DNA of 64,000 bases from Tichowtungia aerotolerans (GTDB lineage: Bacteria; Verrucomicrobiota; Kiritimatiellia; Kiritimatiellales; Tichowtungiaceae), in NCBI RefSeq assembly GCF_009905215.1, contig NZ_CP047593.1, positions 1,740,900 to 1,804,899 of the forward strand, read 5' to 3'. Position numbers and translations under genes: made by a program. The notes under the pieces were generated by a model that was not told the DNA's origin, searched no databases, and saw nothing but the letters and a program-made list of their open reading frames with translations. The stretch's first letter is position 1; every line of letters starts with the position of its first letter. Positions 47,834 through 62,638 of this stretch are shown here, one piece after another.

Positions 47834-50800
47834 ATGAAGAAAAGTAGGCCAATCAACGCATGCACTATATTTGCAATCTTTCTGTGGGGCTGTGTTGCCG
47901 CAATGGGAAACACTTTGCCAGAGCGCGTTTTGACAGATATGAGCACCGTAGATGTTCTCTATAAATCAGTAAGTGAATATAAGACAAAAACCGGATTTTC
48001 AGAAGATGATTACGTAGATCCACCACCATATTCTGGCAGGCGTTATCTGGGTCTCAGCACTATAATAACCAGTTCCTTTAGCGATTTCATTTCTGGGGGA
48101 GCTTGTTTTGCGGGGCCTGTTTATTGGAATACACAGGCGTCATGTACATGGGTTACTGAAGAAAGTATTGATTTGTCCAAACACCCGACATGGACATCAA
48201 CGCCAGGTGACTATCTACAAGTGATATACAGCGGCACGTATCACAAACAAAGGGATACCGCGACTTTAGAGTTTAACTCGCTTGATAATCCCGGCGTGTA
48301 TAAATACATCGTTAAGAATATAACCGAAAATGCGACACGAAATGCAGAGCTGTCGTGGTCTGGAAAAAAAACCACAAGAACGCAAACAGATTCATATACG
48401 TTTGATGAAACTTTTTACAGCTCATCATCTGATGAACACACTGATACCTTTTCGGTCAATGACCCTTGGCTCTATATATCTCCTGAAGTAACGAACTATG
48501 TGTTTTTCAATGAGTTTACAACCGCCGCGTTCTGTGCAAAAACGAGGGCCTTGTTGAACACGAAGAGCTATTCTGGGGACTGGGCAGTCGATAATGGCTT
48601 TGATCTTGCTTTGCGTAATTTGTGGTACGAAGAGAGTTTGCAGTTAAAGAAATCTATTTATAAAATTCGGGTGCAAACCGATTCGCTTGACCAGGGAGTA
48701 AGATACAAGGTGCAGTGGACAGAGATGTTCCTCCCGGAGTGGTATCCCTATGAGGGTGATGTTCAAGTATTACAACATCGGACTTTTAGTTTTGTTGCAA
48801 CAGGCGGGACAGTCGAATCCCCCGAGTATGAACTGGTTCCTCCAAAACAAAACGGATATGTTCACGTGGTTGTTGATGAGCCTGATTTTGTAATTGATCC
48901 GATTCTCTTTGAGGAAAGTTGGCTTCCTCCAGATGAAAAATCAACAACACAGGTTTTCGCCGGAATCAAGAACCCTAAGGATCCGGGCCAGAAAGCTAGC
49001 TATTTAAGCCGGATCAGATGGAAAATCCTTCCCGTTAAAGATGGGAAGTTGCTAAGCACATCGATAAGCGGTCAGGGCACGACCGTTGACCTTGCAAAAG
49101 CATTGCTGAGAGCTGGAGATGAGACTGGAAGCATTTATGTGATGGCTTACGACAGCGAGAAGCCGGGCGTTTATGCTGTTGAAAAGTTTTATATCGCCTG
49201 TGGCCCTTGTTCGGACGGAATCTGTGGAAAAGTAGAAAATGAATGCGTTTCTTTGGAAATTGGGCTGGGCAAAGCCGCAGACGGATCGTCGGCTGGAAGC
49301 CTGTCGGTTTTAGAAAAAGAGCCGAATCCTTATATTTACTCTCCGGTTTCACTCCACTACCCAATTGATGAGACTGGGCTGTCCGATGTGATTCGTGATG
49401 AGCACGGAACTGTCCGGCAGGTAAAAACCGCCAGCTTGATCGCCGATGTCGTTGTGCCGGAAAATCTGGTGGTGATCACAACAAACGCGAGCTATACGAC
49501 CACAAATTATGCAGGCTATGAGGTACGCTTGTATGTTCCTTCTGCTGTTGCGGGAACCAGTAATGGGTTGTTCCAGATTGCTGCCGGCGTCGATCCTTAC
49601 AGAGTGTGGCGAATCGAAGATCCGGAACTGCTGGCCGGCGATGGGGATCAGGTTCGGGTTCGTGAGATTTTAAATGGAATCTCCGGCTCAAAAACAAACA
49701 GCAGTTTGTTTGTCTGGGATTCAAGTTTGAATGGATGGGAGCTTCAGAAAGGGGATGGAGCCCAGATTATTAAACGGGGTTCTGTTGTCGCTGGCGACAC
49801 AGACACACGAACCCTGCTGATAACGGATGCTTTTGGCAATGACGCTACCGAAACCCATAGAGTCTATCGGGACTACTCCTGGGGAACCGTGTTAATTCAG
49901 GAAATCCAAGATCCAAATGGCTCGGCCCTGACAACAGATTATACGTATTACAATGACGAAACAGACCCTGCCCGCATGGGAAAACTGGAGTCGGTAAAAT
50001 ATCCCGACGGATCGTGGATAAAATATTTCTATGATGATGAGGGGCGGGAAAGCTCGGTTTGGTCACCGTGGCTTAATGTGACGTTGGAGCAGGCAGCAGC
50101 ATCAAACTGCAAGCGGGTAGACACCGGCTACGAACCGATAGATTCTGCCGACGTTGCGCAGACAAACAGCTATGTACTTCTAAAGCCGCGAGTGGTGACA
50201 GAATACATCGAAGATACGCCGGTGAAAAAAACCGCATATGCCTATTACACCAACGCCACTGAGCGAATTGAAAAAACAGTTGTTTATGATGATCCTGTCT
50301 CCGGTAGTTATGCAGATACCAACAATCAGATTTCTACGGCTGTTTATTATCTGGAAGATGATGCGAATGCTGACTTAGCTGACAAAATCAAGCGGACGGT
50401 TTCCGCTGAAGGTTTAACCGCGAACTATGGCTACCTCCGAGGAAACTTTTCATGGATTGATCGTACGGCAGGATCGTTTGCTTTCACCGCGAATACCAAC
50501 GGTGCATGGCTGTGTGAAACCGTAACCAACGGCATTGTTTCGAGTCCGGCTGGAGTGGCAAACAAGACGACCATGGAAGTTTCGTATCGCAACGAATATG
50601 GCGGAGTGGAGCTTTCAGAAACACATGTTTACACTGGAAGTTCATATGAACGCATCAGCTGGACGGCCAGCGAATACGATTACAACCTAAGCTACCCGGA
50701 TGCGGTCGGGCATGTGATCAACCGGTACTTTTCTGACGGAACAATGGAAGAAAACGACTGGAGTTCCTGTTGCGGGCTGGAGGGAATCATTAATCGGCAG

Positions 50801-53800
50801 GGACAGCAGGAGCTTTACAACTATGATGCATTGGAACGGCGAGACGATGTGACCCGTCTTGGCGAAGGCACTCAACCGGACATCGGTATCATTTATGGGT
50901 TTGATGCGGCCGGGCGACAGGTCTCTATGACGGAGGCAGGGGGCGGATTGACCCGAACGACGGCAAGCACCTATGACTTGGCTGGCCGTCTGCAATCTTC
51001 GACGAACGAAGCGGGACTAGCCACATCCTACATCTATGAAAATGGCGGCCGCATCAGCTCGGTGACTCTGCCCGGAGGCGCAACACAGGTTACAGAAAAC
51101 TATATTGACGGTCGCACCAAGCGGGTTTCCGGATCGGCTGTTATCGAACAAACCTATGAATACGGCTTTGACGGAACCAATCTGTGGACAAAGGTTTATT
51201 CCGGCCCGCTGGGCCCCGGCTCGCCCCGATGGGAAAAGACGGTCAGCGATGCCGACGGAAAACCACTGCGCACAGAACGTCCCGGCTTTGGCGGAGTTTT
51301 GTTAACCACGAAATACACGAACAACACAAAAGGACAGCTGGTCAAAATTGAGGAATTTGAAGGGACGGCTTTAAAACGTGTCACAATCAATGAATACGAT
51401 GATCTGGGCAACGTTGTTCGCTCCGGCCTGGATGAAGATCAGGATGGAGTTCTGGAATTGGCGTCCATGGATCGCATCACCGATACGGATTTCAGCTATT
51501 GGAATGACTGGACAAACTGGTGGCAACGCTCCACGTCGGTTTCCTACCCCAAGGGCAATAACGCTTTTGCCCTCACCAATTCCGTTACCAAAACCCGGCT
51601 GACCGGCCTGGGCTCAGCCGGAACGAATGGAATCCTGACAGGTGAAAGCGTGAGCAAAGACGTATTTGGCAGCGAAACCGTATCCGAGTCGTGGGTGAGC
51701 AGGACGAACAAGACCATCACACAGGTTGTCGATATTCCGACATCTACAGATGATCAAATCAGCATCACGGTCAACGGCCTGCTCCAGTCTGTTCAATCTG
51801 CGTCGGGTGGCGGAACGGTTCAGTACGGCTACGATGGTCTCGGCCGCCAAACCACGGTGGTTGATCCCAGAATTGGAACAGCCACTACGCATTACAATTC
51901 CAAAGGCCAGGTTGATTGGACGGAAGATACGCACGGAGTAAAAACCGGATATGCCTATGATTCTGAAACAGGGCAACGTTTTTCCAGTTCCATTACTAAC
52001 GGCTCTGAAATCATCACGACCTATACCGAGTTTGATGATTTAGGCAATTTGGTTCATCAGTGGGGATCTGCCGCTTATCCTGTAGCTTATGATTATGACG
52101 ATTTCGGGCAGAAAACCCATCTGCACACCTATAGGGGCGGAAGCAACTGGATTGCCTCGGTTTGGGCCGGAGACAGCGAACAAGCCGACACCACAGAATG
52201 GCTCTACGACCAGACCACCGGACTTGTCACAAACAAACTTTACGCTGACGGCAAAGGCCCGTCCTATACCTACTGGCCGGACGGAAAACTCAAAACCCGG
52301 ACGTGGGCCCGGTCCGACGGCGGACAGCCACTAAGCACCACCTACACCTATGCGGATACCGGGGAGCTGCTGTCTACAGATTACTCAGATGACACAGATG
52401 ATATTTCCTGCACCTATTACCGAACTGGACAGCAGAAAACCGTAACGGATGCCCAGGGCGTACATTCATTCGAATACACGGATGAGGGATTACTGGATGT
52501 TGAAAAACTCGACGGCGTTGAAGTCATTGATCGCAAGCATGACTCTTTTGGCCACAATGCCGGTTATGATGTAGACGATGCTTCCAGCTTCGTCAGCTAT
52601 GGCTACGATTCTTACGGCCGTTTTTCAGTTATTACTTCAACTGTTGACTCTGCGAGCTCAGTGATTGATTACTCATACGTTCCTGATACGGGACTGATTT
52701 CAGGTTATACAGCCCATACCGAGGGATCTGCTGCTTCACTTTTTGTTACAAAAGGTTATGAGTCTGATCGCAATATAATTTCCGGGATTACAAACCAGGT
52801 TGTCGGGGGAACGAATGCGGGGGTAATTTCCTCATTTACGTATACAAACGATGATCTCGGAAGAAGAACTCGAAGGGATGATGTTCGAGGCGGGTTGCAT
52901 GCTCAAGATTCCGCGCTTTATTCCACGTATTGGAATTTTGGATACAACAGCCGGTCAGAAATGACCAATGCAGTGCGTCGTTTTTCTGATTCTACTCCCG
53001 TTGTCGGGCAGTCGAAATCTTATCAATATGACAGTATAGGAAATCGAAAAAATGTAGACGCGACGTCCCCGTCGCGTTCCGAAGTCTACACGGCAAACGA
53101 GTTAAACCAGTACACGTCCCGAATGATCCCCGGCTTCGTAGACGTAAGTGGCATCGCCGCAACCAATGCAACCGTTACCGTGCGTGACGCCGCTCATGCT
53201 GAGCTGCCGGTCCCTGTTACGCGACAGGACGATTATTTCTACACCGCGTACTCTGTGAGCAACTCGACCGCTGCATTCACCAACTCGCTGGAAATCAATG
53301 CCGTCATCAATCCTCCGGGCACAAACGACCCTGACATTGTGGAAACCGCAGTGCGACCAGCCTTCGTCCCGCAAACACCGGAACAGCTCCAATACGATGA
53401 TGACGGAAACCTGACCACAGACGGCAAAAATATTTATGTGTACAATGCCGAGAACCGCTTGGTTCTAGTTTCAAATTTCCAGTATCAAGTTTCTTATTCT
53501 TACGATTACCAAGGCCGAATGTTCAAGCGCACAGTCAACGGCGTTCAACATGATTACCAGTGGGATGGTTGGAACATCATTCGCGAGACATCGCACAGTG
53601 CAACCAACGTATTCACTTGGGGGCTGGATTTGAGCGGATCGCTTCAGGGAGCAGGTGGTGTTGGCGGCTTGATGTCTGCCAGCCTTGGTGGAACAAACGT
53701 CTTCTATGGCTTTGATGCCAACGGTAACGTAACGGATCTAGTCAGGTCCGATGGCTCGGTTGCAGCCCAATATGACTACGATTCTTTCGGCAATCTGCTG

Positions 53801-54670
53801 ATTGATAGCGCAACCATTTCTGGCAATCCGTTTAAGTTCAGCACCAAATTCTGGGAACCAGAGACGGGACTCCTACACTATGAGCTTCGCCCATATCTTC
53901 CAAAGATTGGAAGGTGGCTCAGCCGTGACCCGATAGAGGAAGATGGGGGGCTAAATCTTTATGTGTTTACTAAAAACGCAGTTGTTAACTCTTTTGATCT
54001 TCTTGGGGCGGCTGAGTTTGTGGAAAGCCCCACGCCAATTCCAAAAATATCCTACTCATTAATACACCGAGATGATGGTTTGTTACGCAAGGCTACTCAG
54101 TCTGAATATTTGTTTTATTCTGTAGGGGTCGGGTTGTTCAATCAATCTTCAGTAGCGAAGACGTTGCTTAAGCAATTTATGTTAAAAGAAGGTGAAGGTT
54201 TATTGCTGAGCGCACAACAACTGAGGTTGGCGAAACCAGAAATCAGAACAGTTTTGCTGGATCAAATCATCAAAAGTAAGCGCAGAGATTCTGATTTATT
54301 TATTCTTAAGGCAACATGGATACCTGCCGCTGCAAATGAAAATGGAACGTTTGGTCGGGCTTGGGCTCGAATTGGTGGTGAGGTTTGTTTGTCTAATGAT
54401 GACGAGTCTTGGTCTTTCGATGGCGAAGTGTTTTTTCATGACTTATATGATTTTGATTCCGCACCGCCCTCTTGGAGTGATGCTCATTTGCCAGCTCCAT
54501 CCTGGCCCTTCCCGTACCCCTATAAGCGAAGCGGAGGAACCGGCGGTGCTGGCGATAAGGTAAAATGGGCGGAGAAACATATCCCCGGTGTACCATTTTA
54601 TGTGCGTAGTGTGGTCGTCAGAGTCCGTGGAGAAAGTTCCACCGGCTTCTTAAATCTGAATTCCGATTAG
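47834..54670 (+). CDS. RHS/YD-repeat protein with unique C-terminal domain
   Basis: A 2278-residue secreted protein. The signal peptide is near INACTIFAIFLWGCVAAMG. Residues about 30-640 are a beta-rich N-terminal part. Residues about 640-1980 hold many YD-type repeats (YDYDDFGQKTHLH, YGYDGLGRQTTVVDP, YNYDALERRDDVTRL). The RHS core-associated end is at about 1990-2058: YDYDSFGNLL, FSTKFWEPETGLLHYELRPY, GRWLSRDPIEEDGGLNLYVF, then SFDLLGAAE. After it come 218 residues unlike the rest (LLKQFMLKEGEGLLLSAQQL; WSFDGEVFFHDLYDFD), the place where polymorphic toxins carry their effector. No known nuclease or protease motif is visible there. The putative partner gene follows after 19 bases. Confidence 0.9.
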   Translation: MKKSRPINACTIFAIFLWGCVAAMGNTLPERVLTDMSTVDVLYKSVSEYKTKTGFSEDDYVDPPPYSGRRYLGLSTIITSSFSDFISGGACFAGPVYWNTQASCTWVTEESIDLSKHPTWTSTPGDYLQVIYSGTYHKQRDTATLEFNSLDNPGVYKYIVKNITENATRNAELSWSGKKTTRTQTDSYTFDETFYSSSSDEHTDTFSVNDPWLYISPEVTNYVFFNEFTTAAFCAKTRALLNTKSYSGDWAVDNGFDLALRNLWYEESLQLKKSIYKIRVQTDSLDQGVRYKVQWTEMFLPEWYPYEGDVQVLQHRTFSFVATGGTVESPEYELVPPKQNGYVHVVVDEPDFVIDPILFEESWLPPDEKSTTQVFAGIKNPKDPGQKASYLSRIRWKILPVKDGKLLSTSISGQGTTVDLAKALLRAGDETGSIYVMAYDSEKPGVYAVEKFYIACGPCSDGICGKVENECVSLEIGLGKAADGSSAGSLSVLEKEPNPYIYSPVSLHYPIDETGLSDVIRDEHGTVRQVKTASLIADVVVPENLVVITTNASYTTTNYAGYEVRLYVPSAVAGTSNGLFQIAAGVDPYRVWRIEDPELLAGDGDQVRVREILNGISGSKTNSSLFVWDSSLNGWELQKGDGAQIIKRGSVVAGDTDTRTLLITDAFGNDATETHRVYRDYSWGTVLIQEIQDPNGSALTTDYTYYNDETDPARMGKLESVKYPDGSWIKYFYDDEGRESSVWSPWLNVTLEQAAASNCKRVDTGYEPIDSADVAQTNSYVLLKPRVVTEYIEDTPVKKTAYAYYTNATERIEKTVVYDDPVSGSYADTNNQISTAVYYLEDDANADLADKIKRTVSAEGLTANYGYLRGNFSWIDRTAGSFAFTANTNGAWLCETVTNGIVSSPAGVANKTTMEVSYRNEYGGVELSETHVYTGSSYERISWTASEYDYNLSYPDAVGHVINRYFSDGTMEENDWSSCCGLEGIINRQGQQELYNYDALERRDDVTRLGEGTQPDIGIIYGFDAAGRQVSMTEAGGGLTRTTASTYDLAGRLQSSTNEAGLATSYIYENGGRISSVTLPGGATQVTENYIDGRTKRVSGSAVIEQTYEYGFDGTNLWTKVYSGPLGPGSPRWEKTVSDADGKPLRTERPGFGGVLLTTKYTNNTKGQLVKIEEFEGTALKRVTINEYDDLGNVVRSGLDEDQDGVLELASMDRITDTDFSYWNDWTNWWQRSTSVSYPKGNNAFALTNSVTKTRLTGLGSAGTNGILTGESVSKDVFGSETVSESWVSRTNKTITQVVDIPTSTDDQISITVNGLLQSVQSASGGGTVQYGYDGLGRQTTVVDPRIGTATTHYNSKGQVDWTEDTHGVKTGYAYDSETGQRFSSSITNGSEIITTYTEFDDLGNLVHQWGSAAYPVAYDYDDFGQKTHLHTYRGGSNWIASVWAGDSEQADTTEWLYDQTTGLVTNKLYADGKGPSYTYWPDGKLKTRTWARSDGGQPLSTTYTYADTGELLSTDYSDDTDDISCTYYRTGQQKTVTDAQGVHSFEYTDEGLLDVEKLDGVEVIDRKHDSFGHNAGYDVDDASSFVSYGYDSYGRFSVITSTVDSASSVIDYSYVPDTGLISGYTAHTEGSAASLFVTKGYESDRNIISGITNQVVGGTNAGVISSFTYTNDDLGRRTRRDDVRGGLHAQDSALYSTYWNFGYNSRSEMTNAVRRFSDSTPVVGQSKSYQYDSIGNRKNVDATSPSRSEVYTANELNQYTSRMIPGFVDVSGIAATNATVTVRDAAHAELPVPVTRQDDYFYTAYSVSNSTAAFTNSLEINAVINPPGTNDPDIVETAVRPAFVPQTPEQLQYDDDGNLTTDGKNIYVYNAENRLVLVSNFQYQVSYSYDYQGRMFKRTVNGVQHDYQWDGWNIIRETSHSATNVFTWGLDLSGSLQGAGGVGGLMSASLGGTNVFYGFDANGNVTDLVRSDGSVAAQYDYDSFGNLLIDSATISGNPFKFSTKFWEPETGLLHYELRPYLPKIGRWLSRDPIEEDGGLNLYVFTKNAVVNSFDLLGAAEFVESPTPIPKISYSLIHRDDGLLRKATQSEYLFYSVGVGLFNQSSVAKTLLKQFMLKEGEGLLLSAQQLRLAKPEIRTVLLDQIIKSKRRDSDLFILKATWIPAAANENGTFGRAWARIGGEVCLSNDDESWSFDGEVFFHDLYDFDSAPPSWSDAHLPAPSWPFPYPYKRSGGTGGAGDKVKWAEKHIPGVPFYVRSVVVRVRGESSTGFLNLNSD

Positions 54671-54689: not shown

Positions 54690-55112
54690 ATGAAGATGAA
54701 GGTAACTGTAACTGTAGTCATTCTGTTTTGCATTGGCTGCCTAATCTGGAGGTACACAACTCACAACGAAAATTCCATAGCGCGAGTTTTGAAAATTCTA
54801 CAGATTAACGATGTTCATGGAGTGCCAGAAAACGAAGCATTTCAAGTTAATATTGTTGATCGCGAAAACATCAGTGATTTTTATGCAGTTTTCGAACTCG
54901 CAGATGGTGCTGGTGAAGAATTCATCCGAGCAAATGGCTTCAAGTCTGATGGGTATAGTGCTTTTCCAAATCGAAATGGCTGGAACGCATTGCCGCGCTG
55001 GTGGGATTTTGACCAAGTACCTGACGGCCCCATCTTTAATAAGAATAATGTGTTGGTATTCTTGAGAGATAATGAGTTGTATCTTTATGTATTTGGTGAT
55101 GACGAAGAATAG
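54690..55112 (+). CDS. Small membrane-anchored protein, candidate RHS partner/immunity
   Basis: A 140-residue protein with an N-terminal anchor (MKMKVTVTVVILFCIGCLIW) and an acidic soluble domain that ends YLYVFGDDEE. Aromatic and acidic residues cluster in NGWNALPRWWDFDQVPDGP. GCAAGGAGAG precedes the ATG. Small, acidic and directly downstream of an RHS tip is the usual place for an immunity protein, but the periplasm-facing anchor and lack of family match keep this an inference. Confidence 0.7.
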   Translation: MKMKVTVTVVILFCIGCLIWRYTTHNENSIARVLKILQINDVHGVPENEAFQVNIVDRENISDFYAVFELADGAGEEFIRANGFKSDGYSAFPNRNGWNALPRWWDFDQVPDGPIFNKNNVLVFLRDNELYLYVFGDDEE

Positions 55113-55590
55113 CAAGTTGGGTCGCCGCACCCGTCGGGACGATCTCCGTACCGCAGACATCTCATCTGCCCAGTCATATTGGGACTTCGGCTACAATACT
55201 TGCTCAGAATTGACGAATGCGGTGAGGAATTTGCCCGGCGGTATTCCTGTCGTTGGGTTGAGAATGCCGTATCATGCTCCGGAAAATGGTTATCAGACAA
55301 ACTGGATTTCCCATGCTGGGGAAAGGCAGGACACTGGGTATTTCGGAACTATTGTTTCAGATGAAACAAAAAACTATTTTTGCCGAATACGAACCGTTTT
55401 GGATGAAAATGAGAAAATTGAGGCAGCGTTCTATGGAAAAATTTATGGGGCTTTTTATGTGCGGTCTGCATTGCGGGAAAATCCAAAAATTATTTTTAAC
55501 TACTATTTAAATCCGACTCAAAATGATCGGAACCTTGAGTTTGATCCCAAACAAAATCTGTTTGGTGGACGTAGCCGTTTTGCACCATAG
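55099..55590 (+). pseudogene. Orphan RHS tip (displaced RHS C-terminal cassette)
   Basis: An open frame overlaps the end of the partner gene. Its first 50 residues (LGRRTRRDDLRTADISSAQS, then YWDFGYNTCSELTNAVRN and VVGLRM) are homologous to the main RHS protein (LGRRTRRDDV, YWNFGYNSRSEMTNAVRRFS, TPVVGQ). The remaining 110 residues differ: QTNWISHAGERQDTGYFG, EAAFYGKIYGAFYV and LNPTQNDRNLEFDPKQNLF. There is no signal peptide or ribosome site of its own; ATG 55099 is only the first in-frame Met near the join. It could be swapped into the main gene by recombination, or be a remnant. Confidence 0.7.
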
Positions 55591-55762: not shown

Positions 55763-56085
55763 TTCACTCAGAGTTTTTCAAAACTTCCCCACATATGGAG
55801 GGGATAGAGGGGGTGTAGCCAGTTTCTAAGTTGTAACCCGCTGCCGTCACAGGAGTTATGGTTTCCCCTCTATGGAAAACCTGTCAGAGGGGGACGCATA
55901 GTGGCCCCCGCTATTGTCAACGGGTATGGAAATTTATAGAGGGGGATGTGTAACCCAGGCAACCACCGGCACTTACGTAAGATGATTCCGGGATTCCCCC
56001 TCCATCCCCGCTGAAACTCGGGAAACTTTTGAAAAAGATTCGTGTCAGGGTTGTAAACCCCCGCAGCCTCCGGCTGATCCGGCCC
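55763..56085. repeat. 325-bp fold-back repeat, copy 1
   Basis: This 323-base block is repeated at 57905-58230 with few differences. Its ends are inverted repeats: GAGTTTTTCAAAACTTCCCC near the left, CGGGAAACTTTTGAAAAAG near the right, extended by GGGGATAGAGGGGG against CCCCCTCCATCCCC. Inside are further G-run/C-run pairs and two GTAACCC boxes. It codes for nothing supportable. It lies 197 bases downstream of the stop of the minus-strand gene 56282-57652. Confidence 0.85.
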
Positions 56086-56281
56086 TGCGAAGCACTTGGG
56101 TGGGGAGAGCGTTGATGCGGGATCGTGACAGAAGTGCCTGTTCGTTGACCTTGATTCTATGGGCTAAAAAAGAGGGGGGGGCATTTTGCGTTGCTTTCGA
56201 TTTTAGGATCAGAAACAGAACTCCACCACCGCCTACAATGTCTGGATAGGCTTCTGGCCGATTCCGATTGAAAGCTGGGAA

Positions 56282-57652
56282 TCAGTCCTTCCGGTAGTAG
56301 TATAGGCCGTTGTCCTGCTTTATTGTGTCCGACCTGGCGATAGTGCTGTATTCCGCATCTGAAAGTACCCACAGTAAATTTTCAAACGAAAGAAGAAGGC
56401 TTTTGTCCTTAGACCAGTAACTAACGCCTGCAATTTCCCAGTCAGAGCCATTGGATGATGTACAAATCAGATCTGTGTCACCATTGATAAAATAAATTTG
56501 GTCATCAACAACGCAAGCGCTGTTATCATTACCGAAGAGGTAGTGATAGAACGGGATGCGGCCTGCGGAATTCCATGTAATGCCGTTTGTTGACCACCAG
56601 ACAGTCGAATATGTGTCGATTACCCACAACTTGTCTTGGAATTCGAATGCGACAACAGATCCCGCCAGCCAGTTGGCGCTGGCTGTAGCTTGTGTCCAGT
56701 TAGTTCCGTTTGTTGTCCACCAGACATCCTTAAATTTTGAAGAGCCTTTTTCGCCTCCCATCAGCCACAACTTGTTCTGAAATTCTACTGCAGCGGCGTT
56801 GTGTCTGCCTGCCCAGTCAGCGTTGGCTGTGGCCTGTGTCCATTGCGTTCCGTTTCCCGAACACCAGACCTGGTTATAATAATAAGATGCGTCTTTGCCT
56901 CCCATCACCCACATTTTCCCGTCGAAAGTGGCAACTGAACGGTTATAGAGCCCCATGTTGGGTGAATTGCCGGAATAGGACCAAGCGGCTCCATCAGATG
57001 AGGAATAAATTGAGCTATAACCGATACACCACATCTTTCCGGAAAAATTAAGGTAGGAGCTTCCATAATTACCCGACCTTGGTGTAATTCCGGTAAATAT
57101 CCAGCGTTGACCTGGGATTAGCTCAAGAATCGAATATCCCTGTGCTTCGAGTTCTGAGTTGGGGTAGGTTGCCGAGAGGATGATGTTTCCGGATGGTGTG
57201 GGGCCGGTCAGTGCATCTATCTCTTCCCGCAAATCACCTGTGGCGGTTCCCGCTTCATCTGCATAACCTGCGTGGAGTGAAAAAGGTACAGTTAATATTT
57301 TTTCCCGTGGCGATTGGGCAATTCCATTTAGCGAGAGTTCCAGCCAATGCGAGCTGGCATCCTGCAAGGCTCCTGTCAATGCCGGCTCATTCTCATTTGC
57401 AACGCTTTGGCCTGTCGACCCGAACTGGAAACTGTAGATACCGTTTACATCTAGGGTGACGGTGCCGATGTCTTCAGAGTAAAGCTCATTACCGTTTTCT
57501 GCAGAGTCGTAAATGCGGACGGCCATCGAAACATCACCTGTGACGGCATTGCCACCTGAGTCGGTCAGGCGACCTTGATAGTTAATTTCGGAAGGAACGC
57601 CTGCGAAGCAACAGGGTGCCAATAATATTAATATACATACGATTCTTTTCAT
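56282..57652 (-). CDS. Exported protein with Kelch-like beta-propeller repeats
   Basis: A 456-residue protein with signal peptide MKRIVCILILLAPCCFA. Residues about 20-140 form an N-terminal domain (INYQGRLTDSGGNAVTGDVS) often seen at the start of bacterial surface proteins. Residues about 175-455 hold five to six repeats of about 50 residues with W-x-x-TNGTNWTQAT, FQNKLWLMGG and FDGKMWVMGGKD, the look of a Kelch/galactose-oxidase-like propeller. It is probably surface exposed and carbohydrate or protein binding. It lies between two copies of the 325-bp fold-back repeat. Confidence 0.75.
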   Translation of the reverse strand: MKRIVCILILLAPCCFAGVPSEINYQGRLTDSGGNAVTGDVSMAVRIYDSAENGNELYSEDIGTVTLDVNGIYSFQFGSTGQSVANENEPALTGALQDASSHWLELSLNGIAQSPREKILTVPFSLHAGYADEAGTATGDLREEIDALTGPTPSGNIILSATYPNSELEAQGYSILELIPGQRWIFTGITPRSGNYGSSYLNFSGKMWCIGYSSIYSSSDGAAWSYSGNSPNMGLYNRSVATFDGKMWVMGGKDASYYYNQVWCSGNGTQWTQATANADWAGRHNAAAVEFQNKLWLMGGEKGSSKFKDVWWTTNGTNWTQATASANWLAGSVVAFEFQDKLWVIDTYSTVWWSTNGITWNSAGRIPFYHYLFGNDNSACVVDDQIYFINGDTDLICTSSNGSDWEIAGVSYWSKDKSLLLSFENLLWVLSDAEYSTIARSDTIKQDNGLYYYRKD

Positions 57653-57904
57653 TCTGCCTTTCGCTGATGGTTGTTTTTTGCTTCCACGGAATTAAATCAG
57701 CACCTCGTTCCGCTGAAATCCCCATATCTGTTGCCGACCAAATTGATGTCGTAGAGCATTCTCACATTAAAACAGGTTGCTGTTTCCCGATTTTCAAGCT
57801 TTGAGTGTATAATTGTTCCTATTGCGGTCGTATGGATTTTTACGATGTCTGTGGTCGAACGAAAAAGACTGCCCCGCTCGCCGGACTGGAGCGGGAGTAA
57901 TTTG
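57653..57904. other. Intergenic gap upstream of the propeller gene
   Basis: It contains the presumed promoter for the minus-strand gene 56282-57652. No other supported gene is seen. Confidence 0.4.
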
Positions 57905-58230
57905 TTCACACAGAGTTTTTCAAAAACTTCCCCTCTTATGGGGGGGGGACAGAGGGGGCTTGCCGGTTTTTAAGTTGTAACCCGCTGCCGTCACCGGAGT
58001 TATGGTTTTCCCTCTATGGAAAATCTGTCAGAGGGGGACGCATAGTGGCCCCCGCTATTGTGAACGGGTCTGGAAATCTATAGAGGGGGATGTGTAACCC
58101 GGTCAACCACCGGCACTTACGAAATCTGAACCTGCATTTCCCCCTCCATCCCCGCTGAAACTCGGGAAACTTTTGAAAAAAGATTCGTGTCAGGGTTGTA
58201 AACCCCCGCAGCCTCCGGCTGATCCAGCCC
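57905..58230. repeat. 325-bp fold-back repeat, copy 2
   Basis: Homologous over its full length to 55763-56085, including both end inverted repeats and the GTAACCC boxes. It starts 18 bases after the stop of the minus-strand frame at 58248. Confidence 0.85.
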
Positions 58231-58247: not shown

Positions 58248-58742
58248 CTACTGCCAGCGTCTGAGTTCGGCAGTCTCGACAACGGGTATTGTTCGATCAC
58301 CCAGCCATTCTGCCCACATTGCATCCTTTTCAGCTCGGGTGAAATGGGAGGTGCTTTGATGATTTTCCTTTTCGGTAAACCACACCCAGACCGGCCAGTC
58401 ATTTGTTCGTACAGGGATAAGGGCTGTGCCGTTTAACTCGTACCGGTCATGAACCCAGTAGTTGTGTTTTGATGCACGGCTGTAGAGATCTGTGATGATG
58501 ACTTCAGCGGAGCCGTCGTGGTCCAGATCAACGAAGGTGTCTTTGATGTTTGCGTAGGTCCAGAAGGAGTGAATGGTTGGGTCACCTTCGTTTTGAGGGA
58601 GAATAATCAAAACCTGTGTCAGTCCCGCATTAAGTCCACCGAATCCTCCGTTCTCCAGCTCCACGACATAATCGGTTAAATGGTCATTGTTGAGGTCTTT
58701 GGCGTATACAGCGATAACGACAAGGCCTTGTCGGTATTCTTT
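58248..58742 (-). pseudogene. FG-GAP/VCBS-like domain fragment without its own start
   Basis: The frame is open from 58742 to a stop at 58248. It encodes YAKDLNNDHLTDYVVELENG and FVDLDHDGSAEVIITDLYSR, the calcium-binding D-x-N-x-D pattern of FG-GAP/VCBS repeats, then a Trp-rich end. There is no ATG with a ribosome site at its beginning; the only start is an internal GTG (58664) within the domain. It overlaps the last 66 bases of the Sel1 gene in another frame. The domain was probably fused to a longer exported protein that has been lost by deletion. Confidence 0.6.
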
Positions 58743-59334
58743 TCAACGAGAGCTCCTCCGTAATACAGCAATGCCAGGCAGCATTGGGCATGGGGATGAC
58801 CTTTGTTGGATGCCAGTTCAAGTAGTTCAACTCCTTTGGCCACATCCCTAGGCACATCCTCACCAATGCAAAGCATGGACCCCAGGAATGCTTGACCAAT
58901 CGCGTTATCCTGCTCTGCTGAGAGTGTCAGCAGTTTGCAGGCCCTGCGAGGGTCGCGAGGGAAGTTTGGTCCAGAGGGAGGGAACACTCCTTGAGAACAC
59001 ATCATTCCCAGGTTTCCCTGAGCAAATGCATTGCCTTGATCCACTGACTTCTCTAGCAACGCAACACCTTGTTTGAGGTTTAGTTGAACATATTCGTTCG
59101 GGCTGCATGCCATCATAAAGCCCAGTAAGGCTTGAGCGTCGGCATTGCCTTTGGCAACTCCCTTCCTGCAAAGCCTCGCAGACTCCTCCGGATCAGATGA
59201 AACCATTTTTGCCAGAGTCAGATAGTCGTATTTAAACGAACTGTTTGAACATCCAATCTGGATGAACATAAACAGGATTAGAGCAAGCGAGAGAGTTGGG
59301 GGGGGAGGGCTCCCTTAATGACTGGATTTTTCAT
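58676..59334 (-). pseudogene. Sel1-repeat lipoprotein, frameshifted at a C8 tract (broken or phase-variable)
   Basis: The frame 58676-59269 encodes Sel1-like repeats (ARLCRKGVAKGNADAQALLG, GVALLEKSVDQGNAFAQGNL, GVELLELASNKGHPHAQCCL) but starts inside a signal peptide. Upstream, ATG 59334 with a GGAG site begins MKNPVIKGALPP and then runs into eight C (G8 at 59298-59305 on the plus strand). With nine C the reading would continue PTLSLALILFMFIQIGC, a perfect lipoprotein signal. So one base decides whether the protein is made. The last dozen residues (LYTPKTSTMTI) are out of frame with the VCBS fragment and look foreign. Sel1 proteins mediate protein contacts in the envelope. Confidence 0.65.
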
Positions 59335-59989: not shown

Positions 59990-60064
59990 TGTCCCCACTT
60001 AGGGACAAAAACCTATCATATACACCATTTTAGTGTGTAGAGTAATTTGCACTATTTTGGTGGT
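59990..60064. promoter_or_regulatory. Operator region between the Sel1 genes and the XRE regulator
   Basis: TGTCCC-CACTTA-GGGACA (59990-60007) is a palindrome. TACAC-N9-GTGTA (60021-60039) is another, and GCACTATTTTGGTGG (60049-60063) resembles its ACACCATTTTAGTGT core. This is the kind of tandem site an XRE repressor uses on its own promoter. Confidence 0.5.
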
Positions 60065-60073
60065 CTTCTTGGC

Positions 60074-60307
60074 GTGAAAGCACACCGGAAAAGATCACCA
60101 CAGAAAATGCTCGGAGAGGCCGTCCGTGCCAGACGGCTGGAGCTGGATGTCAGTCAGGAAAAACTGGCTGAAATGGTGAATGTCCACAGGAACTATGTGG
60201 GCAAAATCGAAAGAGGGGAGCAAAACCTCACCATTGAAACGCTGGTGAGGTTTGCTGAGACCTTCAAATGCAGGCCGAGTGATCTGCTTTCAGAAGCGGG
60301 ACTCTAG
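60074..60307 (+). CDS. XRE-family transcriptional regulator
   Basis: A 77-residue one-domain regulator. RARRLELDVSQEKLAEMVNV and HRNYVGKIERGEQNLTIETL form the helix-turn-helix, followed by the usual CRPSDLLSEAGL. The exact start is uncertain: GTG 60074 gives 77 residues, ATG 60107 gives 66, and TTG 60047 gives 86. Candidate operators lie at once upstream. It resembles the C-type controller proteins of restriction-modification systems, but no restriction genes are here. It converges on the small-protein operon with a 4-base overlap. Confidence 0.85.
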   Translation: MKAHRKRSPQKMLGEAVRARRLELDVSQEKLAEMVNVHRNYVGKIERGEQNLTIETLVRFAETFKCRPSDLLSEAGL

Positions 60308-61143: not shown

Positions 61144-61160
61144 ATGAATGTCACTGACCT
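61144..61160 (+). pseudogene. Start of an open frame interrupted by the IS3-family element
   Basis: ATG 61144 follows AAAAGGGAGTGTT and encodes only MNVTD before the IS end; the frame then stops within the IS (TAA, 61168). The promoter-like element at 61032 and good ribosome site suggest a real gene start. The sequence past the other IS end does not restore a long frame, so the gene has been damaged further or was very short. Confidence 0.45.
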
Positions 61161-61239
61161 GATCCCATAAAACTGGACGGTTTGTAGTGAGAGTTCTCCG
61201 TGATAATGACCTGCCCCCGTCGATTGGACCACTGAGCCT

Positions 61240-62145
61240 CTAAAATACGGCTTCTAATAGTTGCTGTGTTCTTTGGGTTCCCTCCCTCCTCCGGAGGAGG
61301 GAGGGAAGCGCGGACGCCTCCATCCACGCACCTATATATTCCGTCGGAGTCTTGTTATCAAGCGACTTATGCGGTCGCTGCTCATTGTAATCTTTTTTCC
61401 ATGCTGCGAGTTTATCACGGGCATCGTCCACTCCGAAGAAAAGCTCCACATTCAAACATTCATCCCTCAACTTTCCGTTGAAGCTTTCGATGTATCCATT
61501 TTCGGTCGGCTTACCCGGTCGGATAAACTCCATGGCGACCTCATGATGATATGTCCAGGCATCCATCGACCTGGAGTAAAACTCGCTTCCGTTGTCCACA
61601 CGAATGCTTTTGGGATAACCGCGTTGATTAGCCACTCCGTTCAGACAAGACGCGACCTTTTCACCGGTGATGGATCGGTCAGCATATAGCGCCAGGCATT
61701 CCCGACTAAAGTTATCGACTACCGTCAGTATCCTGAAGTGACGCCCGTCCTCGGTGCGATCCATCACAAAGTCCATACTCCATTGCTCGTTGGGCCCGGC
61801 AGCCTGCTCAAGAGGAACACGAGGCCGGTTCGCCAACTTTTTACGGGGTTTCGTGCGAACGGCAAGGTTTTCCTCCATGTAGACCCGATAGACTCTTTTG
61901 TGATTAATCTCCCATCCTTCCCGGCGCAACAGAACATGAATGCGCCGGTAACCGAACCGGACACGTTTAGCGGCCAGTTCCTTAATCCGCAGACGAAGCG
62001 CCTCATCGTCCCGAGGCTTCGCTTTGTAGAAAAAGGTGGTCCGGCTTAACTCAAAAAGCCCGCACGCCCGGCGGCCCGAGAGTCCGTATGCATCACATGC
62101 CCCCTCGGCCAGTTCGCGCTTCCGTGCAGGCTTCAGAGCTTTTTT
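61240..62145 (-). CDS. IS3-family transposase OrfB (made by -1 frameshift)
   Basis: A DDE integrase-core protein. After the A6G slip the frame reads [20 protein letters not shown], then [20 protein letters not shown] and [18 protein letters not shown]. The catalytic residues are D in WSMDFVMD, D in IRVDNGSEF and E in [14 protein letters not shown], followed by [10 protein letters not shown]. It is full length and appears intact. It is expressed as an OrfAB fusion at A_AAA_AAG (62145-62139), the standard IS3 mechanism. Confidence 0.88.
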
Positions 62146-62399
62146 GCAATGACCTCCTGCAAGATGTGCTTGTCCAGACTCAGGTCGGCTACGAGCTGCT
62201 TCAACTTGCGGTTTTCATCACGTAACATGCGTAACTCCCGCACCTCGCTTACTCCAAGCCCCTTGTACTTCTTGCGCCAGTTGTAAAACGTGGCCTCACT
62301 GACTCCCATCGACCGGCATAGTTCGGCTATCTTCTCGCCGTTCTCCGCCTGCTTCAGGGCATATACGATCTGTTCCTCTGTGTATCTCTTCCGCTTCAT
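62133..62399 (-). CDS. IS3-family transposase OrfA
   Basis: An 88-residue helix-turn-helix protein: [20 protein letters not shown], then [20 protein letters not shown] and a leucine zipper ([19 protein letters not shown]). It binds the IS ends and limits transposition. AAGGAGGACGA precedes the start. Its end overlaps OrfB, with the slippery A6G just before the stop. Confidence 0.92.
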
Positions 62400-62638
62400 T
62401 CGTCCTCCTTATCATGAGGTTAAACGAAGCCGAATCCTAAAGTATCAACTGGTCCAGTTTTCGGGGTGAACGTCAGGGCTTGTCCGGTGAGGGATGGGCT
62501 TTGAGAGCAGTTTGCCGATATTTTAATCGGAATTGTTTAGGTTAAAAGCATTATGGAAAATAGTAAACAATCGTAGCTTGAGCAGGGGCGTGTATGATTA
62601 TTTCTGTTTTATTTCGAATTTTAGAAACAGGAATATTT

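Follow-up and report, generated by a model that had tools for sequence, protein, structure and literature searches.

Two copies of a fold-back repeat flank a kelch-repeat gene in the 64,000-nucleotide stretch of Tichowtungia aerotolerans DNA analysed here (the window, positions 1740900-1804899 of a single contig of 3,882,676 bases), and we give a probability of about 0.5 to the reading that they are copies of a rare MITE-like fold-back element that was duplicated locally. The repeat is probably a relict of mobile type, ordinary in kind and rare in occurrence, and the mechanism that brought it to its present arrangement is one that we infer. The analysis puts on record a very rare fold-back repeat family in the Kiritimatiellae, apparently undescribed, and removes as wrong the tempting view of the locus as an integron with giant attC sites.

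Structure and surroundings of the two copies

Copy 1 (55763..56085, 323 nt) and copy 2 (57905..58230, 326 nt) lie 2.1 kb apart in the same orientation, taken as that of the neighbouring genes (minus strand), and, aligned over 326 columns, differ by 30 substitutions and 3 gap columns. This confirms the first-pass annotation, which had described two closely similar copies of these lengths. Outside this stretch they have no similarity to each other. The same annotation had the repeat terminate in inverted repeats. These inverted ends exist, with a perfect 10-mer (TTTTTCAAAA/TTTTGAAAAA) inside a longer imperfect end of ~41-44 nt, the match extending to GGGGATRGAGGGGG/CCCCCTCYATCCCC, but they enclose an inner core only, and the sequence common to both copies extends past it by 11 nt to the left and by ~50 nt to the right. 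In copy 1 the core is a 263-nt imperfect palindrome (55774..56036) running from the left inverted end (55774..55813, plus strand, TTTTTCAAAACTTCCCC...GGGGATAGAGGGGG) to the right one (55996..56036, TTTTTCAAAAGTTTCCC...GGGGATGGAGGGGG when read on the minus strand), and in copy 2 it spans 266 nt (57916..58181). The right-hand tail beyond the inverted end (56037..56085 in copy 1 and 58182..58230 in copy 2) differs between the copies by 1 change.

Both copies fold back on themselves well beyond chance, since no other long palindrome of the window is as strong and both match their own reverse complement. They ranked first and second for palindromy across the 64 kb, with scores of 26 and 23 against a mean of 9.5 (sd 1.8) for the window and a maximum of 16 for shuffled copies, and the core profile matched its own reverse complement over the full length with E values of ~2e-15 and 8e-15 (52.5 and 50.7 bits). 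The motif ATRGAGGGG/CCCCTCYAT is repeated within the copies in both orientations, and such short motifs alternating in orientation within a palindromic unit recall REP/BIME sequences; unlike these, the repeat is not dispersed and forms no high-copy unit.

Along the minus strand genes and repeat copies alternate (gene, repeat, gene, repeat), as had been noted at the outset, although the gaps behind the genes are unequal. A 138-aa ORF (58248..58664, minus strand, no Pfam match) lies just upstream of copy 2, which begins ~17 nt past its stop codon, and copy 1 begins ~196 nt past the kelch-repeat gene (56282..57652, minus strand, 456 aa). The relatives of the kelch gene in the order are weak ones only, and no close relative with these surroundings was found. 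A same-strand gene precedes each of the three known copies, the two in the window and a diverged relative in a genome of a sister family (G016, described below), which with three cases is weak evidence. A small XRE helix-turn-helix gene (60047..60307, plus strand), 1.8 kb from the repeat in the window, shares 78% identity with a gene that lies 3.6 kb from the relative in G016, and in both genomes the XRE gene is on the strand opposite to that of the genes preceding the repeat. Beyond the XRE gene, G016 carries small conserved ORFs and a gene that appears to encode ArdC, judging by eye from its similarity to a protein of a second locus in that genome (L046) that Pfam names. In the window ArdC was not found, and an IS3-type element comes after the XRE gene. 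Other loci carrying this XRE gene were without the repeat in a profile search, so the repeat is no constant component of the XRE module and sits in a variable region.

It had also been stated that the window contains no transposase that would serve the repeat. A transposase pair is present, OrfA and OrfB of the IS3-type insertion sequence (~61155-62476, with OrfB spread over two frames, at 61240-61929 and at 61764-62006), but the inverted ends of this element (TGACCTGATCCC.../...GGGGTGAACGTCA) do not match those of the repeat.

Some further features of these loci are worth recording. Long palindromes unrelated in sequence occur near the same XRE gene at 7847-8034 of L046 and, in genome G042, from 8346 and from 10675 of locus L048. 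In the window, the start of an ORF at 55072-55590 is 50% alike over 60 aa to a large Rhs-type protein at 47834-54670, and this ORF looks like an Rhs C-terminal fragment that has been displaced. At 58248-59269 a Sel1-repeat ORF (197 aa) is followed directly by the 138-aa ORF in another frame; the two may be separate genes or the parts of a single gene broken by a frameshift.

A diverged relative in a sister family

The search for more copies by BLAST covered the source genome, its family, its order and its class. BLAST, the end pattern and the end profile all give exactly two copies in the source genome, and allowing two mismatches in the end pattern added nothing convincing there; BLAST found no copy in 13 congeners. 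In 43 genomes of the order the end profile gave 33-42 bits for the six ends already known and at most 16 bits for everything else, and among 346 genomes of the class the paired-end pattern matched at the correct distance in the source genome and G016 only, whereas the control, the same pattern read backwards, gave 0 matches. Together with the BLASTN survey that had been proposed, these searches give two copies in the source genome and one diverged relative among the 346. Phages and plasmids yielded no further element, and neither did scanning public genomes and viral contigs for the pattern. Five loci from the public scans carried the short pattern and lacked the element, and matches in G019 and G099 were short chance matches; all were set aside.

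The relative in G016 lies at C1:532819-533164 (minus strand). In a BLAST comparison with a window copy both ends match, at 89-91% identity (E values of 8.7e-6 and 1.6e-5), and a profile built from the two window copies alone finds it with E values of 1.1e-8 and 9.8e-5. The profile alignment covers positions 13-53 and 173-273 of 326, starting and stopping at the inverted ends, so that the homology ends approximately at the limits of the core; the interior is mostly changed, and the right-hand tail of the window copies was not found in it by their profile. Where inverted ends define a unit, as they do in MITEs, kept ends and a diverged interior are expected (PMC10969869), and a likeness limited to the stretch between these ends is what a MITE-like element would show. 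The palindromy of the relative is weaker, with a match of 22.7 bits to its own reverse complement and a simple palindrome score of 15, no higher than the maximum of the shuffles.

Origin of the repeat

The 263-266-nt core is shorter than 500 bp, non-coding and bounded by terminal inverted repeats, and like bacterial MITEs and palindromic intergenic repeats (Correia, ERIC, RUP, Chunjie, QMITE) the repeat is intergenic, forms a long hairpin and has ends that are better kept than the interior between distant copies. It differs from these families in several respects. The copies of the source genome are two only and close together, not dispersed, and with the one distant relative they make a very low number, which counts against a MITE; the imperfect inverted ends are longer than those of bacterial MITEs, which measure ~4-30 bp (PMC10969869); and neither a target-site duplication nor a parent insertion sequence was found. 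The longest common words flanking either window copy were 3-4 nt with either choice of ends, and since target-site duplications fade in old MITE copies (PMC10969869) their absence is not decisive. No autonomous element with matching ends was found in the 43 genomes of the order, so the suggested search for a matching DDE transposase yielded nothing beyond the IS3-type element with its different ends. The insertion of a MITE-like unit, one of the readings first offered, is thus favoured by the relative in G016, which keeps the inverted ends and is alike only between them, and disfavoured by the lack of a target-site duplication, a helper transposase and a third copy in the genome. A purely selfish element would not predict the same-strand gene upstream of all three copies, nor the XRE gene nearby in both hosts.

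Under the MITE-like reading, the fold-back element would have entered the accessory region long ago, and its inverted ends would once have served a transposase supplied in trans. A local duplication would then have taken the element together with 11 nt of sequence to its left and ~50 nt to its right, leaving two direct copies around the kelch-repeat gene. Because the window copies share flanks that are absent from the relative in G016, the second copy most likely arose by such a local segmental duplication, presumably not by transposition, and with two direct copies around the kelch gene the cassette-like order becomes a by-product for which no cassette mechanism is needed. The first-pass annotation had held that its proposal would fall if the genome contained only these two copies as a simple segmental duplication, and the source genome comes close to this, with two copies whose common flanks suggest local duplication.

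The main rival to the MITE-like reading holds that the repeat is intergenic sequence proper to the accessory region, not mobile itself and simply duplicated as a segment; it could be, for instance, a binding site or a replication or transfer site of a decayed ArdC/XRE-linked mobile element, in which the palindromic G-run/C-run motifs would be putative protein-binding sites. We regard this as possible, if tentative: the neighbourhoods are alike in two families, with the shared XRE gene and the ArdC gene beyond it in G016, the recurrent motif occurs in both orientations inside the copies, and changes are scarce in the right end and tail (2/33 in 91/326 columns, p ~0.002 for a region picked after the fact), but ArdC was not found in the window and the sequence is absent from the other loci that carry this XRE gene. 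A bolder form of the idea, in which an undescribed recombinase or transfer system belonging to an ArdC/XRE-linked mobile element of the Kiritimatiellae recognises the palindromic unit of 263-326 nt and genes are added successively between copies, seems to us very improbable. A structured RNA transcribed from the minus strand, lying behind each gene or acting as its leader, is an unlikely explanation. It would account for the same-strand upstream gene at all three copies, and long hairpins form on both strands, with minus-strand z-scores of -2.7 and -1.8 for the window copies. The G016 copy folds about as well as its shuffles (z -0.55), however, so that folding overall (-2.7 to -0.55) is little better than that of shuffled sequence, and Rfam gave no match even at E 1. 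Between the window copies there are 0 compensatory changes and kept pairs are no commoner than with randomly placed changes; on the plus strand the placement of changes relative to structure has a weak effect, in energy only (9/150). The covariation check that had been proposed therefore found nothing between the two copies, and the weak signal from three sequences rests on the poorly aligned interior.

The reading of the locus as an integron-like system whose gene cassettes carry outsized attC-type sites, also put forward at first, can be rejected with little hesitation, even though the repeat resembles attC in being an imperfect palindrome behind a gene with the same orientation in each unit, and although the genome encodes three integron integrases. 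These are located at 536355, 1059791 and 2638673 (536 kb, 1.06 Mb and 2.64 Mb), all scoring above the curated cut-off, and none adjoins the repeat (the window covers 1.74-1.80 Mb). A covariance model built from six attC sites of the genome's own array at 1.06 Mb recovers the sites of that array and additional ones near the other integrases, and in the window it finds no site, the best score with filters off being 8.4 bits (E 0.87) around the repeats. In this genome the attC sites have a length of ~65 nt, lie near the integrases and are far from the window, and attC sites measure 55-141 nt (PMC7370490), which makes the repeat ~2-5 times too long at 323-326 nt, or 263-266 nt for the core. Moreover, it comprises two units only.

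Integrons elsewhere in the genome

The genuine integrons of this genome are a more useful place to seek cassettes. The one at 1041001-1061000 (L028) has an IntI gene at 1059791-1060741, which scores 441 bits against TIGR02249. Upstream of this gene lie six or more attC sites of ~65 nt, and in the cassette array a 299-nt stretch is repeated exactly, which is possibly a duplicated cassette. The other two integrase genes lie in a 1470-bp block that occurs twice, at 2638156-2639625 and 536338-537807 (L030 and L031), with 99.86% identity, in opposite orientations and 2.1 Mb apart, each with 1-2 attC-like sites within ~5 kb. The two integrases are identical across the 312 aa compared, and the integrase gene of this block appears to have itself moved.
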